Source: Rugalucina vietnamica (lineage: Eukaryota > Mollusca > Bivalvia > Lucinida > Lucinidae). Taken from it: DNA of 64,000 bases. Every line of letters starts with the position of its first letter. Position 1 is the stretch's first letter. The notes under the pieces are model-generated. The model did not search any database. It was not told the DNA's origin and saw only the letters and a program-made list of their open reading frames with translations. A program made the translations under genes and the position numbers. Positions 119-49,880 of the stretch are shown here, piece by piece. Location: assembly GCA_964017185.1 (NCBI GenBank), contig OZ024880.1, positions 41,258,329 to 41,322,328 of the forward strand. Direction: 5' to 3'.

Positions 119-496
119 ATTGAAAAAAAAAAATCATGAGAGACTCATTTTATTGATACAAAGTAGATAGATATGAGCTGTGTCAAGTGAAATATCATCA
201 TCAGGATTTCAATAAAAGTTGAAAATTTTACAACAATGTGTCAGATACGAATACTAGTCACTTTAACTTCTGTATGAAAGGTTTCACAGCTGTTGAGTGT
301 TATTATTTATGATGCAGCTCATATGAAAGAAGTCGGTTTATATGTTAAGTTTTCAACAATTAATATGCATTATGAAATGTTTCTTATTATGCAATCATTA
401 ACTGTAGTCTAGTGTACCTTAACTGCCTTTGAAACTGTGTAAATTCTATTAGTGAATATCATGGAAGACTAATTTCTCTGAAAATTGAAGAAGCAG
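119..496. other. Non-coding stretch with one solitary element end
   Basis: No gene is visible. Near 312-326 there is an inverted copy of the TATGAGCTGCAT terminus that bounds the element starting at 497. It may be the end of a second, mostly lost copy. Confidence 0.4.
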
Positions 497-1270
497 TATG
501 AGCTGCATGATGAAATGATAGAACCAACACAAAAATACAAATATCAAATTGGGAAAAGTCACACAGAATGCTAAAACCTTGTTGTTTGCATTTAAGAACA
601 GAAATGACATCACATGCACATATACTGATAAAAAAAACTATCCTGCAAATTTTCTTTTCATATATGTATACAAAAATGCTACTGTCTAAAAACTTGCCTC
701 TGATAATGGTTTTTCGCAGAAAAACTTTGTATAGGGGACGACAGAAAAAATATTTTCATGTCAAAATCTTGATCTTAGTTTGTCCTAATAGGACCTACAA
801 AAATTTTGAAAATCGGTGATCAAATAAAGATTTTATGACCAAAATGAATTCTGCATAGGGATTTTGCATTGGCAAGGGAGATAATCGATGATCGTGGAAA
901 TGCATAGTTTTCAAGAATTTTTACCCGGTCATGAAGATTTTGTCTCAGGTATGTCATTTGTGTCATTTTATAATAATTTTGAGCAATCATGATTGAATAG
1001 TTAGAATTTAACATTTTTGCGGGAAAATATTTACCTCCCTTCCATGAGATTTTTGTACAGGAAATCCCTATTCAAAAATGTTTTTGACCGTAACTTTTTT
1101 ATTTGTCAACCGATTTTCAAAATTTTTGCTGCACATATTGCGACAAACTATATGTTTAATTGTGCCAAGAAAATATTTCTTCTACATTTGAACAGTTGTG
1201 AAATATCTGCGAAAAACCATTATCACATACTACGAAACAGACTTTAACATTCTCATCATGCAGCACATAT
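497..1270. mobile_element. 774 bp non-autonomous element with 17 bp terminal inverted repeats
   Basis: The left end TATGAGCTGCATGATGA (497-513) matches the reverse complement of 1254-1270 with one mismatch. No transposase frame is present; the short frames inside are AT-rich noise. Interior sequence around 760-860, containing AAGATCTTGATCTTAG-like text, recurs in reverse near 8580-8700, so this is a repeat family. I did not find a clear target duplication, so the superfamily is open. Confidence 0.6.
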
Positions 1271-1649
1271 GAAATAATAATAACTCTTAACCTCAAAACT
1301 GTTCTTCAAGGATTCTAACCAGCCTGTGATGACACAAAAGATGGTCAGGTTTGAAAAATGAAAATTTAGAATTTAAAAAACATATTTACAAAACTGCAAA
1401 TCATTGTGTTGCTCAAAATACTCTCAGGGGTAATTTCTGGACCATTGGTCCTCTGATTGACATGAGTACTTGTCAATTTCAGTTAAATAGATAAGCAGTG
1501 ACTCTTCGAACTATCATGTGCTCATAACATTAAATTAGAACAAAATACACAATATAGTTTTCATTTATACCATCCTAACCCCACCGCCTATTTTTATACA
1601 TGTGTAAACATGTTAAAGCTTTTCTTGTTAATAATTTTATCTTATTTTT
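1271..1649. other. Non-coding stretch, nothing recognised
   Basis: No supported frame, RNA gene or repeat was found here. Confidence 0.4.
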
Positions 1650-2082
1650 TTAAGCTTGGCGCTAGGCTTGATTCTAAAACATTTGCACGGACTCTTTTCA
1701 AAAGCCACACTGGCTTTTGCAGTTCCGGCAGTGATGTCATCATCCGAATGTGCACTGCTCTGGGGAAAAGTGCTTCCCAGGTAGGTAAATTCATAAACAA
1801 TTTTTCGTTTTTTTTTTTTTTGTTTTTTTTTTTGTCCATTTACAGTAATGGTTGGTTCATTGAAAGGCTTTGTGTAAACCCTCTTGTCTTTATTGTATAG
1901 ATTATGAGATCATAGTTACAACATGGTTGTGAAATTTGGTCCATTGCTTCTTTCATTTTGCCTCTGAACTTTCTTACCCATGTCATCTGTATCTTTGTTT
2001 TTGATTGCAACCTTCTCGGGTTGGATAAATTTCCATCAAACCGGTACCTGATTGCAAAACCAGTATCAAATTCCAAGTGCAT
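1650..2082 (-). pseudogene. LINE-A reverse transcriptase fragment, degenerate
   Basis: Read on the minus strand, 1840-2082 gives a peptide with DTGFAIRYRFDGN and NPRRLQSKTK, closely matching DTDFPIKYRFDGN and NPRRLQAKTK of the plus-strand LINE-A copy at about 5520-5600. Around 1650-1800 the minus strand gives FTYLGSTF followed by AKASVAF, which matches LINE-A near 5830-5900. The catalytic YADD segment between them is missing and the frame is broken, so this is a deleted, dead copy of the same non-LTR family. A poly-T tract lies at about 1808-1833. Confidence 0.75.
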
Positions 2083-2085
2083 AAA

Positions 2086-2935
2086 TTACACGCCTGGGAA
2101 ACGGTCAATTTGTACACCGCCGGTGCTCCATTGTAAGTGAAGTTGACGGTTTCCGGTGCCGGAGTTGACCAACGTAAATAGAGAGAATTTTACTGGGTCA
2201 ACCAGTTCAAGGTAAAATATTTTCCTTGTTCTAAATCCATTCAAAAATCGGAGAATGTCAGATGATGCGCCTATGATTGGGGATTTTACAAGAACTCAAA
2301 TTACATGAAAAGTTTATAAAAGTATGTAGCAATCAGTTTTCGCGTTTGAAATACTGGGTTATTTGGTGAATGTACATGTCTAAAAATGCCTGAATTACGT
2401 CATGTACACATTCCATATGCGGTGTTAAAAATAAAATACCAAGTTTAGAGTACACATTACTGGTTGAAGGTATTGTGTGTAAAAGATAATATTTGGTTAC
2501 AAGAAATTGGAATCAAAATTTTACAAGCGTACCAATTGACGACTGGAGTGCAATTTAACTAATACATTTGCAATGCTATCGTGATAAATTAAAATAAGAA
2601 CCGTGATATCACTACGTTGATGCATGTTGTTTTCCTTGAGGACAAAATCCCTTTCGGAAATAATGTTGCTTGTCATTTTGTTCCATTTTCATGCCTGCTC
2701 ATGCTACACTGTCGCAAAGATATAGAAATTGCCGAAAGTCATCGCCATATGAACCGTTAAGCAAACAGTCTGACCTTCATCTTGCCATTACAAGTTACAC
2801 CACATATCTTAAGCTGTCTTATAAGTATTTCACTTGTAGAAACTTAAATGAGTACAATCTTAACGCTTAATTTCTGTGGGTGTGCTAATTGACGTTAGGG
2901 CGTGCAATTTGACTAATACTAACCCAGTGTAGTAA
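2086..2935. mobile_element. Probable motif-array element, copy 1 (word AATTGAC)
   Basis: The left edge has an ACGCCTGGGAAACGGTCAAT end that recurs in reverse at about 7055-7100. Inside, AATTGAC or CAATTTGACTAAT words occur near 2105, 2150, 2535, 2890 and 2915. No transposase is visible and the boundaries are approximate. The short open frame at 2670-2870 has no recognisable content. Confidence 0.45.
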
Positions 2936-3275
2936 CTTGCTACTTAACTTCAGTATAGACATCTAGTCTCTTTAGTGTTTGTTCCTATATTTATGGCTAA
3001 TGTGAACACGAGATTTTAGGTACCAGAAACAGCTTAAACTATTCAAGATTGAAGGTTTAGTTAAAGAATTATATTGTTGATATTTAATCTTGCAAGTTGA
3101 CATCTCGTGATACAATTAAGTCCATATGCTAAAGGAAAAACTACCGGTAACAGAACTGCTTTATCCATCCTGCTTGGATTTCGGGATTGCGTGTAACCAT
3201 TCTAATGATAATCACTATGATTGCCTATCTGAACACCGGTTCAAGGGGTTTTCCAGAACAAAAAGACAAGCAACA
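2936..3275. other. Non-coding stretch before the LINE-B fragment
   Basis: An open frame begins at 3126 and runs into the LINE-B fragment. Its first 50 codons show no similarity I recognise and are probably flanking sequence fused by chance. Confidence 0.4.
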
Positions 3276-3832
3276 TTTGGACCTTTTCCAGTTCTTCCTG
3301 GAGGCCATGAGTGTGAGGGTCCCAAATATGGAAGCTCAGTTTGGGACCCTCACACTCATGGCCTCCAGGTAGAACTGGAAAAGGTCCAAAATCGAGCGGC
3401 AAGGTTTGTGACGGGAAATTATGTTTTTGAAACTGGGAGCATGACTGGCATTTTAGGTCAACTGAAATGGGAATCCCTTAACAAAAGGAGGAAGGATAGT
3501 AGACTTATATTGCTATACAAAGGTCTAAAGGGTAAAGCCAGAATACCCACAGATGACCTTATCCCAAATAATAGGCGTTGTAGAAATCAACACGCTTTGG
3601 CTTTTCAGATACCTTCAGCTAGCAAAGAAGCGTACAAAAGTAGTTTCTTTCCACAGACTATCAGCGACTGGAATGACCTCCCTGATTCACTTATCTCCTC
3701 TGCTGAAATGTCTGATGACTGTGTCCAAGTTCGCTTCACTCGTGCGTTCAAGGAACTAATTTCTCCCCCATCCGAACCCCCTGGTGAAATAATGTCATTT
3801 GGCGTGTCACCAGTAAACTATTCAGATTCCAT
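3276..3832 (+). pseudogene. LINE-B: 3' end of a non-LTR retrotransposon ORF2, 5'-truncated and folded back
   Basis: The plus-strand frame reads YGSSVWDPHT, then LEKVQNRAARFVTGNY, WESLNKRRKDSRL and ISDWNDLPDSL. These are the usual words of the region after the reverse transcriptase domain in CR1/L2/jockey-type LINEs. No RT catalytic core is present; only about the last 170 codons survive. The element ends near CAGTAAACTATTCAGATT, where a second copy (9654-9978) carries an ATTCAG repeat tail. The 5' edge is an inverted duplication: 3276-3326 is the reverse complement of 3340-3390 with one mismatch and a 13 nt spacer. The chance ORF spanning 3126-3887 should not be read as a host gene. Confidence 0.85.
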
Positions 3833-8960: not shown

Positions 8961-9028
8961 GACATCGCGAAGAAAATATATAAATATTCGCCACACAGTC
9001 ACAGCGAAAAACAATGGCAGAAGCGATA

Positions 9029-9265
9029 TGAGCCGCATCGTGAGAAAACCGGATTTTTGCCTATGCGAAAACAAAGGCGCAGATCAGCTTCGCAGTAACT
9101 GCGAAGCTGATCAGCGCCTTTGTTTTCGCTACTCGGATAGTACAATTCCTCTTCTACTTAAATCCAAAATTTCAAGCTTCTAGCTCTTTTCTGAGCTTGT
9201 ACAGGCCGGTTTGTGTCAGACCTGGTCGGAAACCCCGAAGACCGGTTTTCTCACGTCGCGGCTCA
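9029..9265. mobile_element. GAGCCGC-family palindromic MITE, copy 1
   Basis: Terminal inverted repeats are TGAGCCGCATCGTGAGAAAA at the left and its near reverse complement at the right (ending TTTTCTCACGTCGCGGCTCA). A near-perfect 63 bp palindrome (9066-9128) lies inside: CGAAAACAAAGGCGC, then GATCAGCTTCGCAGT and the mirror half. No coding capacity. Copies 2 and 3 are at 14728-14964 and 19546-20909, and a related end lies at 63968-64000. Confidence 0.82.
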
Positions 9266-9574: not shown

Positions 9575-10198
9575 GAATAGATGGGCTGCTTGTGTCTCCA
9601 GGTAAAGCTTCTAATCTACTCAACGACCATCTGATTACTGGATAACCGCTCATCTGAATCTGAATCTGAATGGTTTACTGGTGATACGCCAAATTGACAA
9701 TATTTCACCAGGGGATGCGCCAGGAGGGAAATCAGTCCCTGGCTCTCACAAGAGATGCGAACTTGGACACACAGTCATCAGACATTTCAGCAGAGGAGAT
9801 CAAAGAATCAGAGAGGTCATTCCAGAGTGTTGATTTATACAACGCCTATTCTTCGGGATAAGGTCATCTGTGGGTATTGTGGCTTTACCCTTTAGACCTT
9901 TGTATAGCAATATACATGTAAGCCTACTATCCTTCCTCCTTTTGTTAAGATATTACCATTTCAGTTGACCTAAAATGCCTCATGTCTGAGCCTTCCCAGG
10001 AAAAGTGGTTTAGTCAAACTATCCATACATATAAGCCTTATTGGCTTAGTTGGGTGGTTATATTTATGAGGCATGACATCTTAATGTTGGTAAAAGTCCC
10101 ATAAAATGGAGGCAACATCCCGACATGACCATTGCTGTTGACTGGGACTTAAAGCATCAATTCAAACAAAATCAATCTATATTTTGCCCAAAATTAAG
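9575..10198 (+). repeat. R4 repeat, copy 2, split by a LINE-B insertion
   Basis: The R4 text (GGCTGCTTGTGTCTCCAGG, GGATAACCGCTCAT) stops at 9653. It resumes at 9979 with CTCATGTCTGAGCC and the GGAAAAGTGGTTTAGTCAAA block. It continues through CATCCCGACATGACCAT to GTTGACTGGGACTT. Confidence 0.7.
9654..9978 (-). mobile_element. LINE-B, 325 bp 5'-truncated insertion with 5 bp target duplication
   Basis: It is homologous, in reverse, to 3480-3832. The 3' end carries the hexamer tail ATTCAG repeated (seen as CTGAAT on the plus strand at 9654-9672). The insertion is flanked by CTCAT at 9649-9653 and 9979-9983. Removing insert and duplication restores a continuous R4 sequence. These are the standard marks of target-primed reverse transcription. 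Confidence 0.82.
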
Positions 10199-15509: not shown

Positions 15510-15565
<56 letters not shown>

Positions 15566-15736
15566 CCGCTAAACATTTACGCCTCTCTCTCACTCTCGCT
15601 CTCTCTCTCTCTCTCTGTAATGCCGACAAACATTTACGCCTCTCCCTCACTCTCTCTCTCTCTCTCTGTAATGCCGCTAAACATTTACGCCTCTCCCTCA
15701 CTCTCTCTCTCTCTCTGTAATGCCGCTAACTATTTA

Positions 15737-15774
<38 letters not shown>

Positions 15775-15801
15775 ATGCCGCTAAACATTCACGCCTCTCC
15801 C

Positions 15802-15848
<47 letters not shown>

Positions 15849-19545: not shown

Positions 19546-19634
19546 TGAGCCGCGACGCGAGAAAACCGGTCTTCGGTGTTTCCGACCTGGTCTGACACAA
19601 TTCGGACTGTACAGCTACAGAAGATGGCTAGATG

Positions 19635-20753
19635 GTACGTGGACAATTCGGACCTTGGCTAATTCGGACCTGATTCGGACCTCAGCTGTGGACAATTCGG
19701 ACCTTGGCTAATTCGGACCTCGACCACTGGTCAATTCGGACCCCGTAAAATCGAGGTCCGAATTAGCCAATGGTTTTTTTGGAAATAGGGTCCGAATTAG
19801 CCAAGGTCAGAATCTGTTTATGGTCCGAATTGACCACTCGTGAAACAGCAATAAGGTCCGAATAAGCCAGTACATGTACTTGAATCGATTTAAGATGGAA
19901 TGATTGTCCGTGCCTTCAACTCTTTGAATTATTTCATGCAGTATTCACGAGTCAGAAGTACTAAATGTGTTTCGTTGATTGATCGACTGATTGATTGATT
20001 TGTAGCTTAGCATCCAAGTCGACAGCTATGGCCATGTCGGGACGTTAGCTCCATTTTCGTAGGACTTTTACCCAACATTGCAAGTAAACACTAGGACTTA
20101 CGTATCTATATGGATAGTTTGACTTCTACCACATTTCCTGGACACGCTCAAACCTTCTGAGCGGTTAACAAGTGATCAGATGGTCAGTCAGTAGTAAATA
20201 AGCTTTGCCTGTAGGCTCAAGCAGCCCATCTGTTTCTTACGGGTTCTTTGTGTTTTGTAGAACTTTCACAATCCTCTGGCAGTGCAAACAAATGCGAGAC
20301 CGTCATACAGCACGACAAGAAATCAGTAAAACCTGCTTACAACAACAGCAAAAGCAATAAGTAGACTATTAAAACGACACAGCAGATTGTACAGCCTGTA
20401 TATGGATTGAAGTCTCATGACGGCTCGTTTTTCATCTGAACGCAGTTTTCCTTTTGGAAAATACATAATGCAAATGTCCGAACTGACCAATAAAAAAGGT
20501 CCGAATTGACCAAAGGAAAGGGTCAGAATTGACCAACGGAAAAGGTCCGAATTGACCTGGAGAAAAGGTCCGAATTGACCAAAGAATTTTTATTTTTGAG
20601 GTCCGAATTGACCAATAAAAAAGGGTCCGAATTGACCAGTAGTCGGGGTCCGAATTGACCAGTGGTCGAGGTCCGAATTAACTAGGGCCGAATTTTTTAG
20701 GGTCCGAATTGACTAGGGCCGAATTAGCCAAGGTCCGAATTGTCCATAATTCT
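19635..20753. mobile_element. 1,119 bp transposon with more than 20 AATTCGGACC words and 8 bp target duplication
   Basis: GCTAGATG flanks the insert at 19627-19634 and 20754-20761. Both ends carry GGACAATTCGGACCTTGGCT in inverted orientation, forming terminal repeats of about 30 bp. Some 11 variants of AATTCGGACC/GGTCCGAATT cluster at 19640-19865, and about 14 at 20475-20750, often followed by TGACC or TAGCC. The 8 bp duplication suggests a hAT-type transposase supplied from elsewhere. No transposase is encoded. The middle carries a reversed R4 copy. Confidence 0.82.
20005..20235 (-). repeat. R4 repeat, copy 3, inside the AATTCGGACC transposon
   Basis: It contains GGCCATGTCGGGACGTTAGC, 'ccattttcgtaggacttttac', GGATAGTTTGAC, 'gagcggttaac' and 'aagcagcccatctg' in reverse R4 order. 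It could be captured cargo or a later insertion. Confidence 0.6.
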
Positions 20754-20909
20754 GCTAGATGCTCGAAATTTCTAATTTAGGAACAGGAGGAATTGTTCTA
20801 TCCGTGTACGGAAAAGAAAGGTGATGATCAGCTTCGCAGTTACAGCGAAGCTGATCTGCGCTTTTGTTTTCGAATAGGCAGAAATCCGGTTTTCTCATGA
20901 TGCGGCTCA

Positions 20910-21685
20910 TTTAGGTGTTCAAAGCATTTTCATTACCTCAAGGAGCAGCAACCGACGGATCTATTTCATCACCAACAAGGTTACATGTTGCGAAAGTTCG
21001 CATGCTTATTGTTCATCCAATTTTAAAACTTCTCTAATTGCCATCCAGCGGGTCGGGCGTCAAACTTATTAATGACGCCCATGTATAAGGACAAAGAAGG
21101 GCTGTGATGGACCATAGAAGAAAGTTTTCAGTATCATCCTCTGTTTAGAATGGTCATTTCCATTTGCCTGCTTTTCCCCCCATTTACAGATGCCAGGTGT
21201 AGCGACAGGCAGTGTACGGTCATTATTCGGTTTGTCACATATGTCTCCTTTGGATTTGATAACTGGGTACAAGATCTAAAAACGCAATAATTTAATTTCA
21301 AATCTAATATCTTTTAAAATGAATTTCCTCCATTTTGTCTGTTAGAATGAGTCACCAAATGTTAACATGTTCTTTCTTTTGGTACCATAAATAATATTCC
21401 GACGGTAATAGATCATATATATTTACATTAGAGACTCTAAAATATAATTTATGACTGATTTTATGTGTTGGTATCTTATTTCGTTTTTCTTCGCATCTTT
21501 GATTTAAGTATGTTTGAAAATTTAAAGTTATGGATGAAACACTTTTGCCCATAACTCATCTTAACAAGCTATTAGAGGCTACTGTGGTTTAATTGGATGT
21601 TCTGTGGATCTCCCATTTAATCTAAGATAGTCACATGCACGCGACAGAGGCTAGAAAGCTAAGTTAGCCATCACGAAGAGGGTCC
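20910..21685. other. Non-coding stretch with a decayed copy of the 12326 domain
   Basis: 20980-21075 aligns with the 3' part of the domain at 12560-12660 (TGCGAAAGTTCGCATGCTTA, then CAGCGGGTCGGGCGTCAAAC), with about 40 bp deleted. The rest shows nothing recognisable. Confidence 0.5.
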
Positions 21686-26149: not shown

Positions 26150-29100
26150 CTATTTACAATTTAATGTTTGTCGTCTTTGCAGTATTTTTGAACAGGTTTT
26201 GGCACACAAACGGACTAGATCTGGGCTAGAAAATAAAAATACAAACTTATTTTCTAAAGACAGTGAATCAAAGTTTGGATCGAAGTTGATAGCTTGGGCT
26301 AAAAGAGCATACCTCAAATCATCGTATACTTTACAATTCAAAATTACATGTATTTCATTTTCGAGAACATTACAAAACGGACATAAGCGTGATTCTTCGG
26401 GTAAACCCTCATAACGACCTGTTTCAATCCTTATCGGTGCAACACCACAACGGAATTTGCTAAAAGCAGATCTGTGACTAACTGGAAGTATAAGTTTGCA
26501 GTAGTTTTCGGCGACATAATTTTGCTTAAAAGTCTTGTATAATCGAAGTTTGTTTCTCCCCCTACCAGATGGACCCACGTTACTATTAATCCTAGCTAAC
26601 CAACCGTTTACAAAATTTTCATAAATGTTGTTTTCAAAGTCAGTTACAAATCGCCGAGATGATGGTATTGCTTCAGTAATACGCGAAAACTGTCCGAAAT
26701 TATTAGCTGCAAGAAACTGTGAGACAGAGTACATCCAATTTTTACATGATCTACCAGCTTTTTCAAATGCCCATAGAGAAATGCGCTTATTTAGACGGTT
26801 ATTATTCATTGCGGCTAATTTCGACCAGTAAAGACTAACACTTTTCCACTGACGCACAACGGTGGGCTTCCAAGCCATTTCTCCTGCGACGGCATCGTTA
26901 GGTGTGTATTTGCCTACCCCTAAGTAAAATCGCATGGCCCTATTATGTACTGCATCTATACAAGAATACGACTTAATACCCCAAATTGGTGAACTATAAC
27001 TAATGACTGGCCAAACAACAGAATCATACAGCTTGGTAAATACACTATATGGAACGCCACCGATAATTTTACATTTAGCGATGAGCAATCCAAGGGCTCT
27101 ACTGGCACTCTGAGCAACGTGTTTGACCATTATATTATAGTCTAAATGCTCACTTAATATAACACCTAAATATGTATATCTGTCGGTTATACTTATTACC
27201 CCATCACCATAAGAAAACGTAGCATCAGTTTTTGGAACAGAGTTTTGTCGAAAATGGACAACGTTACTTTTGTCCCTGTTAACAGTCATACCATTTCTAC
27301 CACACCAATCGCTCAGTGCATCTAAAAGCAACTGTAAATCCGTTTCGGTTTCTGCTAGCAATACTATATCATCTGCATATAACATTATGCAAACCTTTTC
27401 ATTGTTAACCTTAACACCTAAGTCTAGAGATTTGAGAAAGACAGCAAGATCATTTATAAATAGATTAAATAGCAGTGGCGATAAAACACACCCCTGACGG
27501 AGCCCACAATTCACATCAAACCAGTCAGTTCTGTACGAATTTAGTCTAACACATGACTTAACGGTAGTATAAAGGGATTTGACTGCTTGAAACATCCTAC
27601 CAGAAATTCCAATATCCGATAATCTTTTCCATAATAAAGATCTGTTAATAGTGTCATAGGCTTTTTTAAAATCAATAAAAGCACAAAAAGTGGATTTCTT
27701 CAACTTTTTTCTAGTGTCAACCAGATTTACTAAAGACGAAATATGATCAGTGGTGCTTCTTTTCTTTCTGAAACCGTTCTGTTCATCTACTATTTTATTA
27801 TTTTCGTCTGACCAAGAAGATAACCGATTATTTAAAATTGAACAGTATAATTTGTACATAATAGGTGCAAGGCTAATGCCCCTGTACGAAAGTGGGTCAC
27901 GTTTGTCTGTGGTTGACGATTTTGGGATCGGATTGATTATACATTTACCCCACTCGGACGGTACTATACCATTATCAAAGCAAATATTAAATAAAACATG
28001 CAGAAAGGAAACAGCCGTATCATTTTTGCTTGGCGCGACAGCGTCAAGCAATTGAAACGGAATGAGGATTTCTTCTCAATCTGTTGGGGTTTTCCTTTAA
28101 TCTGTGGGGTTTCCCTTTGACATCCAGGGGCCTGGTTCCAGTCGCAATGTTTTTATACACTTCTTGCATAATAAATCAATTGAAGACGGAAACCAGACTT
28201 GCTCTCCGCCGTTTTTATAATGACTTGTGGGAAGAATGACGTACTTGGATCTAACGTTAAACATTTAGTTGGCGTTCTGGACGGATAATGCTAAAACCCG
28301 GAACTTTGTCCTAGGAACGACCAAGTACGAAAGCTTGAAATCCACCGTAGCGAGGAAGTGTTCACGACCGACGCGACCCATCGAGTTACCGAAAAACTCC
28401 ACAAACCTACGAACACAACACACGGACAAATATTGTTACATACAGACTAGCCAAGCGTTCCTTTTAACAAGGAAAATTTATTAAGTACTTCAGCGGGAAT
28501 ATTATCTATACCGGTAGCTTTACCACGTTTTACAGAGTCGATGGCCTTTTTGACCTCAAAGATAGAAATATGTTCATTGTAATCTGTTGAAAATGCTGAC
28601 TGGGTGCATCGTTAGTCATGTTACTACTTGCGTTGTCAGTGCTATTATCCGAATCGATATCAGTATCAGTAACCCGAGTAGTACCATTGAATAAAGAACA
28701 GAAGTCATTGCGCCATTTACGTAATACATCATTAATATCAAATGATACGGAACCATCGTCTAATGCTACTTCCATGGGTATAGCGTTTTTGTTTGCGTGA
28801 GAGATACCAATTTTACCTATAGATTTCCAAAATTTCGATTGATCAACATTACACTCATTTAAAATGCCTTCTTGCAAAGAATACCAATGAGACCGTTTTG
28901 CTCTTTGGACTTCCCTGTCAAATTCCTTGCGCACTCTTACGAACGTAGACTTGTTTCTTAATGCATCGCTTCGAGACTGGCTTCGTAGCCATAGTTTTTC
29001 GGCATCGCAAACAGATGACCATAGATCGGACAGTTTATCAGACCACCAAGGCTTGTTTGGCCGATGCTTTTTATTCTTCGTTGAGTTACTTGAAGTATTT

Positions 29101-30179
29101 TTACGTTTGATCATAGGCAACTGTTTAAGCATTTCGTCCTTAAGAATTTTACACCAATCCGAATAAACGCCATCAATATCCGACTGTGAACGTAAGCTAC
29201 TTTCAAGCTTTGAGATTGTGTCATTTACTCGAAACAAAAGTTCGTCATCATCTAAGAAATTTTCAGAAACATTGGATACATCAAACCTGTAAAAGTCGCC
29301 ATTAGTACAGGAGTGTTCAGAAGATGCATTCGCTGATTTACATGTATCCCCTCCTGAATCGAATTCAACATTCCATTTCAGTAAAGAATGATCCGGTAGA
29401 CCTACTGGTCCCGCACAGTTAAGGCTGCCCGACTGATTAATTAACTCACAATTCCTTGTAACAGAAAAATTAGAGAAACTGCCTAGACTTGAGTGAGAAA
29501 CAAAACAGTAATCAACGACTGCCCTGCCATTTGTGGAAACTGATGTAAAATCATTGTTCTTTCCTCTACCATTCAAAAAACACATGTTTGTGTTAATCAA
29601 AAAGTCAATTAAAAGTTCCCCATATTTGTTTAAATGAAAATCTATAATTTCGCGGTCAGGTATGCAATCTACACCTCTAATAAAATCGTCTAAATCTCCA
29701 CATCGGCCATTGAAATCCCCACAAACATACATGATACCCTCGTTTTGATACTTATATACATCTGATAGTAGATTATCAAAAAATGTGTTGACATCAAAAT
29801 ACCTTGAAGAGTTTTCTGGTGGTAGGTAGCAGACGGACGGGACTATGCACAAACTGGTCGATTTATGACTTAATTTCAACCATAAAATACCCTCATTACT
29901 GTCATCTAATATTGAAATATCAAATTCTAAAAATAAGTCAGTACGAATAAAGAAGCCAACTCCTCCAGAGCCACGCCTGGCATTTCTATGTTGATGTTTT
30001 CTATTATTACCGAACCATTTAAAACCATTTACTTCCAGATTATTAGTGTTTGTTAAATGCGACTCTGCTACTCCCAGGATGTCAACGTCTGACGATAAAA
30101 GACACTCGGACCTAAGGATGTAATTATCACTGTCGACATTAGTATTCCAGCCCCGGACATTCCAAAACCCTGCTACTAT
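26150..30179 (-). pseudogene. LINE-C ORF2: AP endonuclease plus reverse transcriptase, interrupted
   Basis: The product would nick DNA and copy its RNA at the nick. The endonuclease half begins FWNVRGWNTNV, then GVAESHL (catalytic Glu), CGDFNGRCGD, VDYCFVS and LPDHSLLKW. The RT half (26150-28053) has PLSYRGISL, GFRKKRSTTDH, FIDFKKAYDTIN, LRQGCVLSPLLFN and the catalytic YADD at about 27368-27379. Near the C-terminus, CPFCNVLENEIHVILNC gives C-x2-C-x7-H-x4-C. The frame follows the ORF1 TAG codon directly with no ATG. Two lesions stop expression: a one-base frameshift near 28575-28582 (the frame of MNIFLSL versus NEHISIFEV), and the 421 bp insertion at 28054-28474. Confidence 0.92.
28054..28474. 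mobile_element. 421 bp insertion inside LINE-C ORF2 with 4 bp AATT target duplication
   Basis: AATT occurs at 28050-28053 and 28475-28478. Removing the insert and one AATT joins the codons for IPAEVLN and LLDAVAPSK in frame. The insert starts GAAACGGAATGAGG and ends CCTTTTAACAAGGAA. It has no inverted ends I can recognise and no significant frame. The family is unknown. Confidence 0.72.
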
Positions 30180-31571
30180 CTAATCTCGCCAGCGACGCCC
30201 ATCCCGAGGTCGTTCCTGTCTGTAATCGCGACCTGACTGATAACTGTCATTACGATAGTTACTATTATAGTCTCTTCCGTTGCCATAATATTGACGATTC
30301 CCGTCATGTCTATTCGAATCCGGGTCCCTACTCCTTCCACTTTGTCGGTCGGGCTGACGGTCGTTCTGTTGTTGATTATACCTTGAGCTACTGTGATCAT
30401 CGCGGGACTCTCTGGTATTATTGGACGACAAATTGTCTCTATCATATAGTATTCTTGAGCCCCGCATTGATAGATTGCTGGCATTCGATTTCATAGCATG
30501 AACAATTCTTCGAAAATTGCTACTGACAGACCGCTGTGATGGGTGCATGTCGTGGTGAATAAACACCTTAGCAAATTGTCTTGAGTCTTTGAGACGACGT
30601 TTCTCTTTCATTACGCGCGTTTTATCCTGCTTACTCTTCATTCTGGCTATAACAACTCCTGGTATCGTGTCTGTATGTGATTGTTTCCTTTCAGCTTCAT
30701 CGACGGAGACATCAGAGAGTCTGAGTCCGTCCCGCAACAGTGAATTTACTTTATTCTTTATGTTTTCGTTGTGACTTTCTGGCAAGTTCCTGATAACAAT
30801 ATTAAGTGAAATGTCCCTTTCACTGTGACTATTTTGTGAACCTGAATCACGTGACTTCACTTCTGTGCGTATATCGTCAAGGTCTGCCGCCACTTCAGCT
30901 CTCAAAGATTCCTTGAAATCTTCCAATCTAGAATCAAAATCAGCTCTAATTTTGTTCATCTCCGAATTCACACGTTTATCCAGAATTTGTGACACTTTTG
31001 TAGCAATGCGTTTCTCGAGCCCTGAGTCTATCTTGTCTAGCCTTTCATTCACTGACATAAACATCATATTCATATCAGCCGACAACTTAGCAAACAGCTG
31101 TTGCACCGACGGCGTCGCACTAACATGAACGTCTGCCTCCGTAACTATAAGACTCTGTGGCACTTTACCCGCCCCTTTATTGTTCAGATTTCTCCGTGCT
31201 TTGCGGGATGAACGTTTTTCATTTTCATTTTCAATGTCCTCCGACTCATTCTCAACGTCTCCAACACCGCGCGCTTTTTTGGTAGAAGCGTCTGACGTTT
31301 CTGGTAGCGACAGATTACGCTTACGGCGATTGGCATGGGGCGTATCTACTTTGGAAATCCTCTGGCTAGACATTATGGAGTCCACATATTCAGAAGCCTC
31401 AGCCAAAGTGTCCTTGACAGTTGCTTGATCACGTCCGGGTGAGCTACTTTTGTCGAGCGATGTGTCCTCCCTAGTGATCTTGTCCTCAGATGAATTCGTC
31501 ATGGTCACAACACAACACAATGAATTGACTGTAGAAACGTGAAAAGACCTATCTAGCCTCCGGCTTTTCAC
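30180..31571 (-). CDS. LINE-C ORF1: L1-like RNA-binding protein, 463 codons
   Basis: ORF1 proteins of L1-type LINEs coat the element RNA as trimers and act as nucleic-acid chaperones. Residues 1-160 are charged and Ser-rich, with an RKR-type basic patch near 82-86. Residues 165-240 look like a coiled coil (MSVNERLDKIDSGLEKRIAT and the following heptads). Residues 255-345 resemble an RRM plus C-terminal domain (LNIVIRNLPESHNENIKNKV, KVFIHHDMHP). Residues 378-463 are a low-complexity R/D/N/S/Q/Y tail. The frame opens at Met 1 (31571), but Met 24 (31502, MTNSSEDKITRED) is the likelier start because upstream codons look like leader sequence. It ends at TAG directly before in-frame ORF2. The frame is intact. 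Confidence 0.87.
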   Translation of the reverse strand: MKSRRLDRSFHVSTVNSLCCVVTMTNSSEDKITREDTSLDKSSSPGRDQATVKDTLAEASEYVDSIMSSQRISKVDTPHANRRKRNLSLPETSDASTKKARGVGDVENESEDIENENEKRSSRKARRNLNNKGAGKVPQSLIVTEADVHVSATPSVQQLFAKLSADMNMMFMSVNERLDKIDSGLEKRIATKVSQILDKRVNSEMNKIRADFDSRLEDFKESLRAEVAADLDDIRTEVKSRDSGSQNSHSERDISLNIVIRNLPESHNENIKNKVNSLLRDGLRLSDVSVDEAERKQSHTDTIPGVVIARMKSKQDKTRVMKEKRRLKDSRQFAKVFIHHDMHPSQRSVSSNFRRIVHAMKSNASNLSMRGSRILYDRDNLSSNNTRESRDDHSSSRYNQQQNDRQPDRQSGRSRDPDSNRHDGNRQYYGNGRDYNSNYRNDSYQSGRDYRQERPRDGRRWRD

Positions 31572-31600
31572 AATGGTTTTTCACAATAGTAAATACCTAT

Positions 31601-48374: not shown

Positions 48375-49880
48375 AGAGGACCATTGGTCCTATAAACGCT
48401 CACCTGAGACCTGAGATATATACGAATAAACTTGTTTGACTACAATGGTAATATGCATGTATATAACCCCAGGGCAGGGTCAGAATAACCCCTGGAGTCA
48501 ATGTCTTTTCAAATCATGAAAATTTAGTCAGTTTGCCAATTTACTGCAAGTTTTGTCCTTCAAATTACTTTTTAACAATTTTCCCCATTCAAATACATGG
48601 CCAAGCTAAGTTGGCCTTGCTGTAAAATAGGTCAAGGTCATCCCAGGGTCATGATTTAAATAAATTTTGTAGATCTCCATTCCTATATGCTTCATGCCAA
48701 GTTTCAAAATCATAGGCCTCCTGGTTCTGAAGAAGAAGATTTTTTTAAAGATTTTTGTTGTTTATAGCCATGGTGGCCAAATTGGTCATGTGACCATGAC
48801 TATTTATGCAAACTTTCATTCACTCTTCCTGAGGATGCTCCAAATAAAGTTTGGTTTTGATTTTCCCTGCGGTTTTAGAGAAGAAGATGCTTGAACATTT
48901 TGGTCATATGCATGTATATAGCCCCGGGGCAGGGGCAGACAACACCCTGGGCCAAAATTATTATCATAAGCATAGATCTACTGTCCATTTGCTCATTCCT
49001 AGCAAGTTTTCTGACATTAAATGACATTTTCCTATTTTCCCCATTTAAATGCATGGGCGGCCTAAGTTGACCTTGCCGTTAAATAGGTCAAGGTCATCCC
49101 AGGGTCATGATTTGTATATACTTTGTAGCGCTCCATTCCCATATGCTTCATACTAAGTTTCAAAATCATAGGCCTTCTAGTTCTGAAGAAGAAGATTTTT
49201 TAAAGGTTTTTGCTATTTATAGCCATGGCGGCCGTCTTGGTCATGTGACCTTGACCATTTATACAAACTTTCATTCCCTTTTCCCAATAAAGCTCCACAT
49301 AAAGTTTAGCTTTGATTGGCCAAGCAGTTTCAGAGAAGAAGTTTGAATATTTTGGTCATATACATGTATATAGCCCCGGGGCAGGGGCAGACAACCTCCT
49401 GGACCCATTATATTTTTATAAACATAAATCTTTTGTCCATTTGCTCATTCCTAGCAAGTTTCTGCCATTAAATGACATTTTCCTATATTTTCCCATTCAA
49501 ATGCGTAGGCGACCCAAGTTGACCTTGCCGTAAAATAGGTCAAGGTCATCCCAGGGTCATGATTTATACAAACTTTGTAGAGCTACATTGCCTGATGCTT
49601 CATGCCAAGTTTCAAACTCATAGACCTTCTGGAGAAGAAGATTTTAAAGGTTTTTGCTATTTATAGCCCTGGCAGCCATCTTGGTCATGTGACCTGGACC
49701 ATTTATACAAACTTTAGTTCCCCCTTCCTAAGTATGCTCCACATGAAATTTGAATTTGATTGGCCAAGCGGTTTCAGAGAAGAAGATGATTGAAAAGTGT
49801 GAACGACAACGACAACGACGACGGAGCATGGGTATACTATAAGCTCACCTTGTGAGCCTAACGGCTCAGGTGAGCTAAAA
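48375..49880 (+). mobile_element. GCTCACCTGAG-family element with three ~450 bp internal tandem units
   Basis: The left end is GGACCATTGGTCCTATAAAC followed by GCTCACCTGAG. The right end is TAACGGCTCAGGTGAGCTA. The marker TGTATATAGCCCCGGGGCAG occurs at about 48913 and 49366, with a variant at 48469. Every unit repeats TAAAATAGGTCAAGGTCATC, GGTCATGTGACC and TTTGATTGGCCAAGCAG-like text. No protein is encoded. Confidence 0.82.

Follow-up and report, generated by a model that had tools for sequence, protein, structure and literature searches.

The window, as we call the whole 64-kb stretch of DNA analysed here, carries at positions 19634-20752 an element of 1119 bp that the comparison of ends among copies identifies as one member of a repeat family. 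This element (GGTACGTGGACAATTCGG...CCGAATTGTCCATAATTC) is annotated as a non-autonomous transposon copy on the basis of boundaries common to other copies and of the duplications that abut them. Copy comparison places the left copy of the target-site duplication, GGCTAGAT, at 19626-19633 and the right copy, TGCTAGAT, at 20753-20760, the two matching at seven of eight positions. Since the other copies set the element at 19634-20752, the duplication reads (G/T)GCTAGAT. The initial annotation had correctly reported a duplication of 8 bp, but the span that it gave, 19635-20753, lies one base off with respect to the other copies, and its letters for the duplication, GCTAGATG, wrongly included the first G of the element. 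The inverted ends, the two arrays and the nested position that it described are all real in the analysis of the window.

With up to one mismatch, the word AATTCGGACC is matched 26 times in the window, against a mean of 3.32 and a largest value of 9 in 100 shuffles, and 22 of these matches fall within the element. Word matches and copy alignment delimit a left forward block of six words pointing inward (19645-19742, plus strand), a left inverted block of four words (19755-19864, minus strand) and a right block of twelve words, all of them pointing inward (20498-20741, minus strand). Between the arrays lies a core (19865-20497) that is wordless at up to one mismatch and that other copies have in variable form or exchanged for different sequence. 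The forward and inverted blocks together render the left end self-complementary, and strongly so, the single-strand DNA fold of 19634-19880 in the window copy having a z of -10.86. Comparison of copies also shows that the element termini start with GG and GA. The two ends of the window copy match each other in inverted orientation over about 103 bp at 82%; this match is made of words and has a near-perfect part of 32 bp.

The element lies within another repeat. The left part of this host GAGCCGC repeat, which measures about 240 bp when whole, was located at 19546-19633 and its right part at 20761-20910 by alignment to other host-repeat copies. When the flanks are joined with one copy of the duplication, they align unbroken to the minus strand of window positions 9028-9265 (identical at 207 of 239 positions), as well as to host-repeat copies in other loci, for instance L020. 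Therefore, the element inserted into a repeat with GAGCCGC ends, about 240 bp in length, and the split GAGCCGC element with rejoining halves that had been proposed earlier is borne out. The host-repeat copies without the insertion are the empty site for the element; the site of the duplication reads GGCTAGA in L020 and AGCTAGA at 9028-9265. At 0.3 kb from this latter copy, a segment of 77 bp (9576-9652, minus strand) matches positions 525-601 of the element, within the core, at 81%.

Copies of the family across the genome

The genome comprises 1.09 Gb in 47 contigs. In the whole genome there are 172 exact matches to the 21-base left end and 207 to the right end, and the reversed control patterns of both ends give none. 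On contigs C1-C7, 40 of the 77 exact left ends have a correctly oriented exact right end within 12 kb. The length of these exact-ended pairs is 350-1551 bp in thirty cases and 1860-4770 bp in ten. Sixty left-end places were read to some depth, together with eight further loci. Of the ten pairs on C1-C7 that exceed 1.6 kb, L010, L011 and L024 were read over their full length, L035, L046, L047, L057 and L058 in part, and those at C7:11946477 and C7:18819647 were left out. The copies that were compared have their boundaries in common, and the observations named in the initial annotation as refuting it were for the most part not made.

The duplication was assessed in 27 end pairs. A match at seven or eight of eight positions is found just outside the ends in 18 of them, and a further pair, L028, matches at six of eight. 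None of 702 mismatched pairings, in which right flanks were dealt to other copies, reaches seven of eight. A duplication of 9 bp, matching at eight of nine positions, is a better fit in L022 and L045, the latter being alternatively readable as 8 bp plus one extra base, and a convincing duplication is absent from the remaining six (L003, L036, two readings of L014 and two pairings in L010). Across the 19 pairs in which six or more of the eight positions match, the duplication halves differ at 8 of 152 positions, which corresponds to about 2.6% per copy since insertion; as the pairs were picked by similarity, this value, derived from few changes, errs on the low side.

The target sites are also biased. 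T2 and A7 occur jointly in 11 of 40 left flanks, compared to 328 of 3293 other offsets of the same flanks (p 0.0014). They are likewise present in 11 of 34 right flanks, which are largely the same duplications as those of the left flanks.

A single layout, consisting of left inward block, left reversed block, wordless core and right inward block, is found in the 19 aligned copies, L022 having lost most of the left forward block. The number of words per copy ranges from 16 to 28 with a mean of 24.05, in good accordance with the some 25 variants initially counted. As a rule, the first word begins at base 12 from either end, and the spacing between words is mostly 15-16 bp near the ends and 23-33 bp deeper in.

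Some places depart from simple copies. In L010 (G000:C1:13590644-13600543), positions 151-3461 hold family copies that are nested or joined, with a right-type end inside a left array. This locus contains a second family copy and forms a left-left composite, with left ends at both outer sides and no outer duplication. An extra 3.8 kb in L028 matches a repeat beside L016, additional unassigned sequence stands between family segments in L009 and L011, and just 27-38 bp of the left end are kept in L025, L027 and L060. L016 and L021 are two closely similar copies with common flanking frames, retrotransposon-like by eye; given these common frames, the copy may have moved passively with its surroundings instead of jumping twice. 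The core of L043 (G000:C4:38258665-38260166) and that of L074 contain, by eye, another word-array insertion composed of ACTCGTAG/CTACGAGTT words, so that a second kind of word-built repeat exists in the genome.

Divergence of words, spacers and core

In the 19 aligned copies, divergence from the consensus amounts to 2.85% in the words, 5.2% in the spacers and 11.5% in the core. The value for the core is 8.6% (831/9629, summed by hand) once L018, whose core does not align, is dropped. When the terminal 40 columns are excluded, the words diverge by 2.3% in the left array and 3.5% in the right one, and the spacers by 5.1% and 5.3%, respectively. In three of the 19 copies (L012, L013 and L023) the words are no less diverged than the spacers.

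The divergence of the words is close to the estimate of about 2.6% per copy since insertion; thus, the words carry little divergence from before insertion, which the spacers and the core do carry. Judging from these alignments, the words look almost unchanged among source copies, and the spacers and core unconstrained. Part of this conservation of the words could arise because repeated units are misaligned, because copies homogenise one another or because the copies were selected by their ends.

Short copies, with hardly any core left, and copies with another core bear on the role of the core. Both arrays are kept in L044 (403 bp) and L039 (714 bp), whose duplications match at seven and eight of eight positions, respectively, and the usual core is replaced by other sequence in L018, L042 and L045. 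From these copies it is concluded that the core is dispensable and replaceable. The family copies serve as a natural experiment to tell which portions of a transposon end are important: there is little older change in the words while it is present in spacers and core, and constraint on the putative binding sites becomes measurable without an experiment. Beyond this measurement, the results are the ordinary annotation of a repeat family.

Class of the element and search for its transposase

The common termini, the duplications, the many copies and the fact that no transposase gene was seen indicate a non-autonomous terminal-inverted-repeat transposon. The copies, the duplications and the empty site thus uphold the initial reading of a non-autonomous cut-and-paste transposon inserted in another repeat with 8-bp duplications. 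It is very probably a gene-less cut-and-paste passenger moved in trans, with ends that serve as putative transposase sites; this degree of confidence concerns what kind of element it is and what its ends do, and does not extend to the superfamily. A transposase encoded elsewhere would move the element in trans. The ten-base word, placed mostly 15-33 bp apart and inward at both ends, would be the site for the DNA-binding domain of that transposase, and the many sites may aid the capture and pairing of the two ends. These would be cut at the terminal G/C and then inserted across an 8-bp stagger, in the manner of Ds in maize or the Muta1 derivatives of Aedes. The proposal that the words are transposase-binding sites, already put forward for this locus, gains indirect support from their position, layout and lower divergence.

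Among the copies read, several long ones in part, and in the domain comparison on C1-C9, no transposase gene with the ends of the family was found. Inspection by eye of the frames of 110 aa or more in L009-L028 revealed none like a transposase, the right array was not seen in the 6-7 kb inward of the left ends of L040 and L042, and a frame of 91 aa in L042 has no Pfam match. The long frames of L024 and L057, met in looking for a partner transposase, resemble by eye non-LTR reverse transcriptase.

The genome contains at least 116 matches to the hAT-dimerisation (Dimer_Tnp_hAT) domain, 150 of 199 candidates having been scored, and 59 matches to the MULE transposase domain, for which all 123 candidates were scored. 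The exact left ends listed for the comparison of distances were those of C1-C9 (98 of the 172 places) and two places on C10. By eye, none of the 56 hAT-domain matches and none of the 40 MULE-domain matches on C1-C9 is as close as 10 kb to any of these listed ends, a comparison that a partner on C10-C17, or one whose left end differs by one base, would escape. The nearest hAT domain lies about 53 kb away on C1, and the nearest MULE domain about 12 kb away on C6, past a complete copy of 1141 bp. The hAT transposase gene with the same ends that had been suggested as a check was therefore not found in this comparison.

Searches of other kinds gave the following results. Rfam had no match in the window. 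Judged by their titles, none of the literature matches listed for the letters AATTCGGACC deals with transposons, and none of those listed in a search for such a family in molluscs reports one.

Superfamily of the mobilising enzyme

Terminal inverted repeats of hAT elements usually start with CA or TA, a feature that is usual rather than defining, and the GG and GA termini described above lack this start. On the side of hAT are the 8-bp duplications and the nTnnnnAn target bias; this bias occurs in P elements too, so it is not decisive. We tentatively regard hAT as the leading guess for the superfamily, narrowly so. The assignment to hAT made in the initial annotation is plausible rather than demonstrated. 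The searches described above gave no transposase gene flanked by these ends, and similarly built ends are present in Mutator-like elements of Aedes (excerpt of PMC5225508).

Two hAT systems offer points of comparison. Ac/Ds of maize resembles the family in having gene-less derivatives with common termini, subterminal repeats (AAACGG in Ac/Ds), 8-bp duplications and variable filler cores (excerpt of PMC3260210). However, the ten-base word is unlike AAACGG, the termini of the family start with G, its left array has an inverted inner block, and the autonomous partner was not found among the copies read. Hermes and hobo share with the family the 8-bp duplications and the nTnnnnAn bias (excerpts of PMC10368747 and PMC3276498), and also the short subterminal repeats, which in Hermes/hobo are bound by BED domains. 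The difference lies in the transposase, none of the hAT type having been linked to the ends of the family within 10 kb on C1-C9.

The initial annotation leaves out a serious rival, namely a Mutator-like (MULE) transposase, which is possible, if somewhat less probable than hAT; the family would then resemble the non-autonomous derivatives of the Aedes aegypti elements Muta1 and Muta5. The excerpt of PMC5225508 describes for Muta1/Muta5 duplications of 8 or 9 bp, a short terminal motif followed by nine tandem subterminal repeats, each 12 or 15 bp long, many derivatives with different cores and foldback-like ends; it also gives a typical length of more than 100 bp for MULE terminal inverted repeats. 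This description fits the family in the words 15-16 bp apart near the ends, the foldback-like ends and the different cores of L018, L042 and L045, and perhaps in the word-built inverted match of about 103 bp between the ends of the window copy. Termini that start with G likewise suit a Mutator-like element. MULE transposase domains are, moreover, present in the genome. Mutator-like elements make duplications of 8-10 bp, and those of the family are mostly of 8 bp; 9 bp fits better in one or two of the 27 pairs, depending on the ambiguous L045, whereas 18 match at seven or eight of eight positions. Against a Mutator-like enzyme stand also the T2/A7 bias, Muta1 being reported in the excerpt with little or no target bias, and the distance of the MULE domains from the listed left ends on C1-C9. 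As nine repeats within each inverted repeat of Muta1 imply about 18 in both ends, the count of about 24 in the family is not far above that number and does not deserve to be called extreme, as it was initially.

The remaining probability falls to other superfamilies (P, KDZ and Merlin). Mobilisation by a P-type (THAP) or KDZ (Zisupton) transposase is unlikely. In its favour, the P-element target GTCCGGAC also has T2 and A7 with duplications of 8 bp (excerpt of PMC3276498), and Zisupton makes 8-bp duplications as well (excerpt of PMC12730594). In addition, a THAP-domain reading frame is present 2.1 kb inside the left end of L060/L076 (G000:C5:75476720-75482253). However, L060 keeps only about 27 bp of the family and shows no right array over the 5.5 kb that were read; the THAP frame is thus not necessarily part of the family.

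Tandem Repeats Finder reports tandem repetition with units of 15-31 bp over parts of the right array, which might suggest that the arrays are an ordinary minisatellite beside a chance duplication. This view is ruled out by the duplications and by the empty site that the host repeat provides, to which the hundreds of exact ends and the one layout can be added.

The family is real, well defined and nested, and it is an ordinary known kind of small passenger element. It is improbable that it reveals a transposase lineage newly tied to such ends, namely G-terminal and 8-bp-duplicating ends with a dyad-like ten-base word present about two dozen times and a self-complementary left end whose inverted block would have a role of its own, such as left-right polarity or the regulation of transposition.

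Elsewhere in the window, positions 26150-31580 of the minus strand resemble a non-LTR retrotransposon, with endonuclease and reverse-transcriptase domains and a long upstream frame that has no Pfam match. Tandem repeats are present at 48578-49787, with a period of 452 bp, and at 15528-15826, with a period of about 55 bp.
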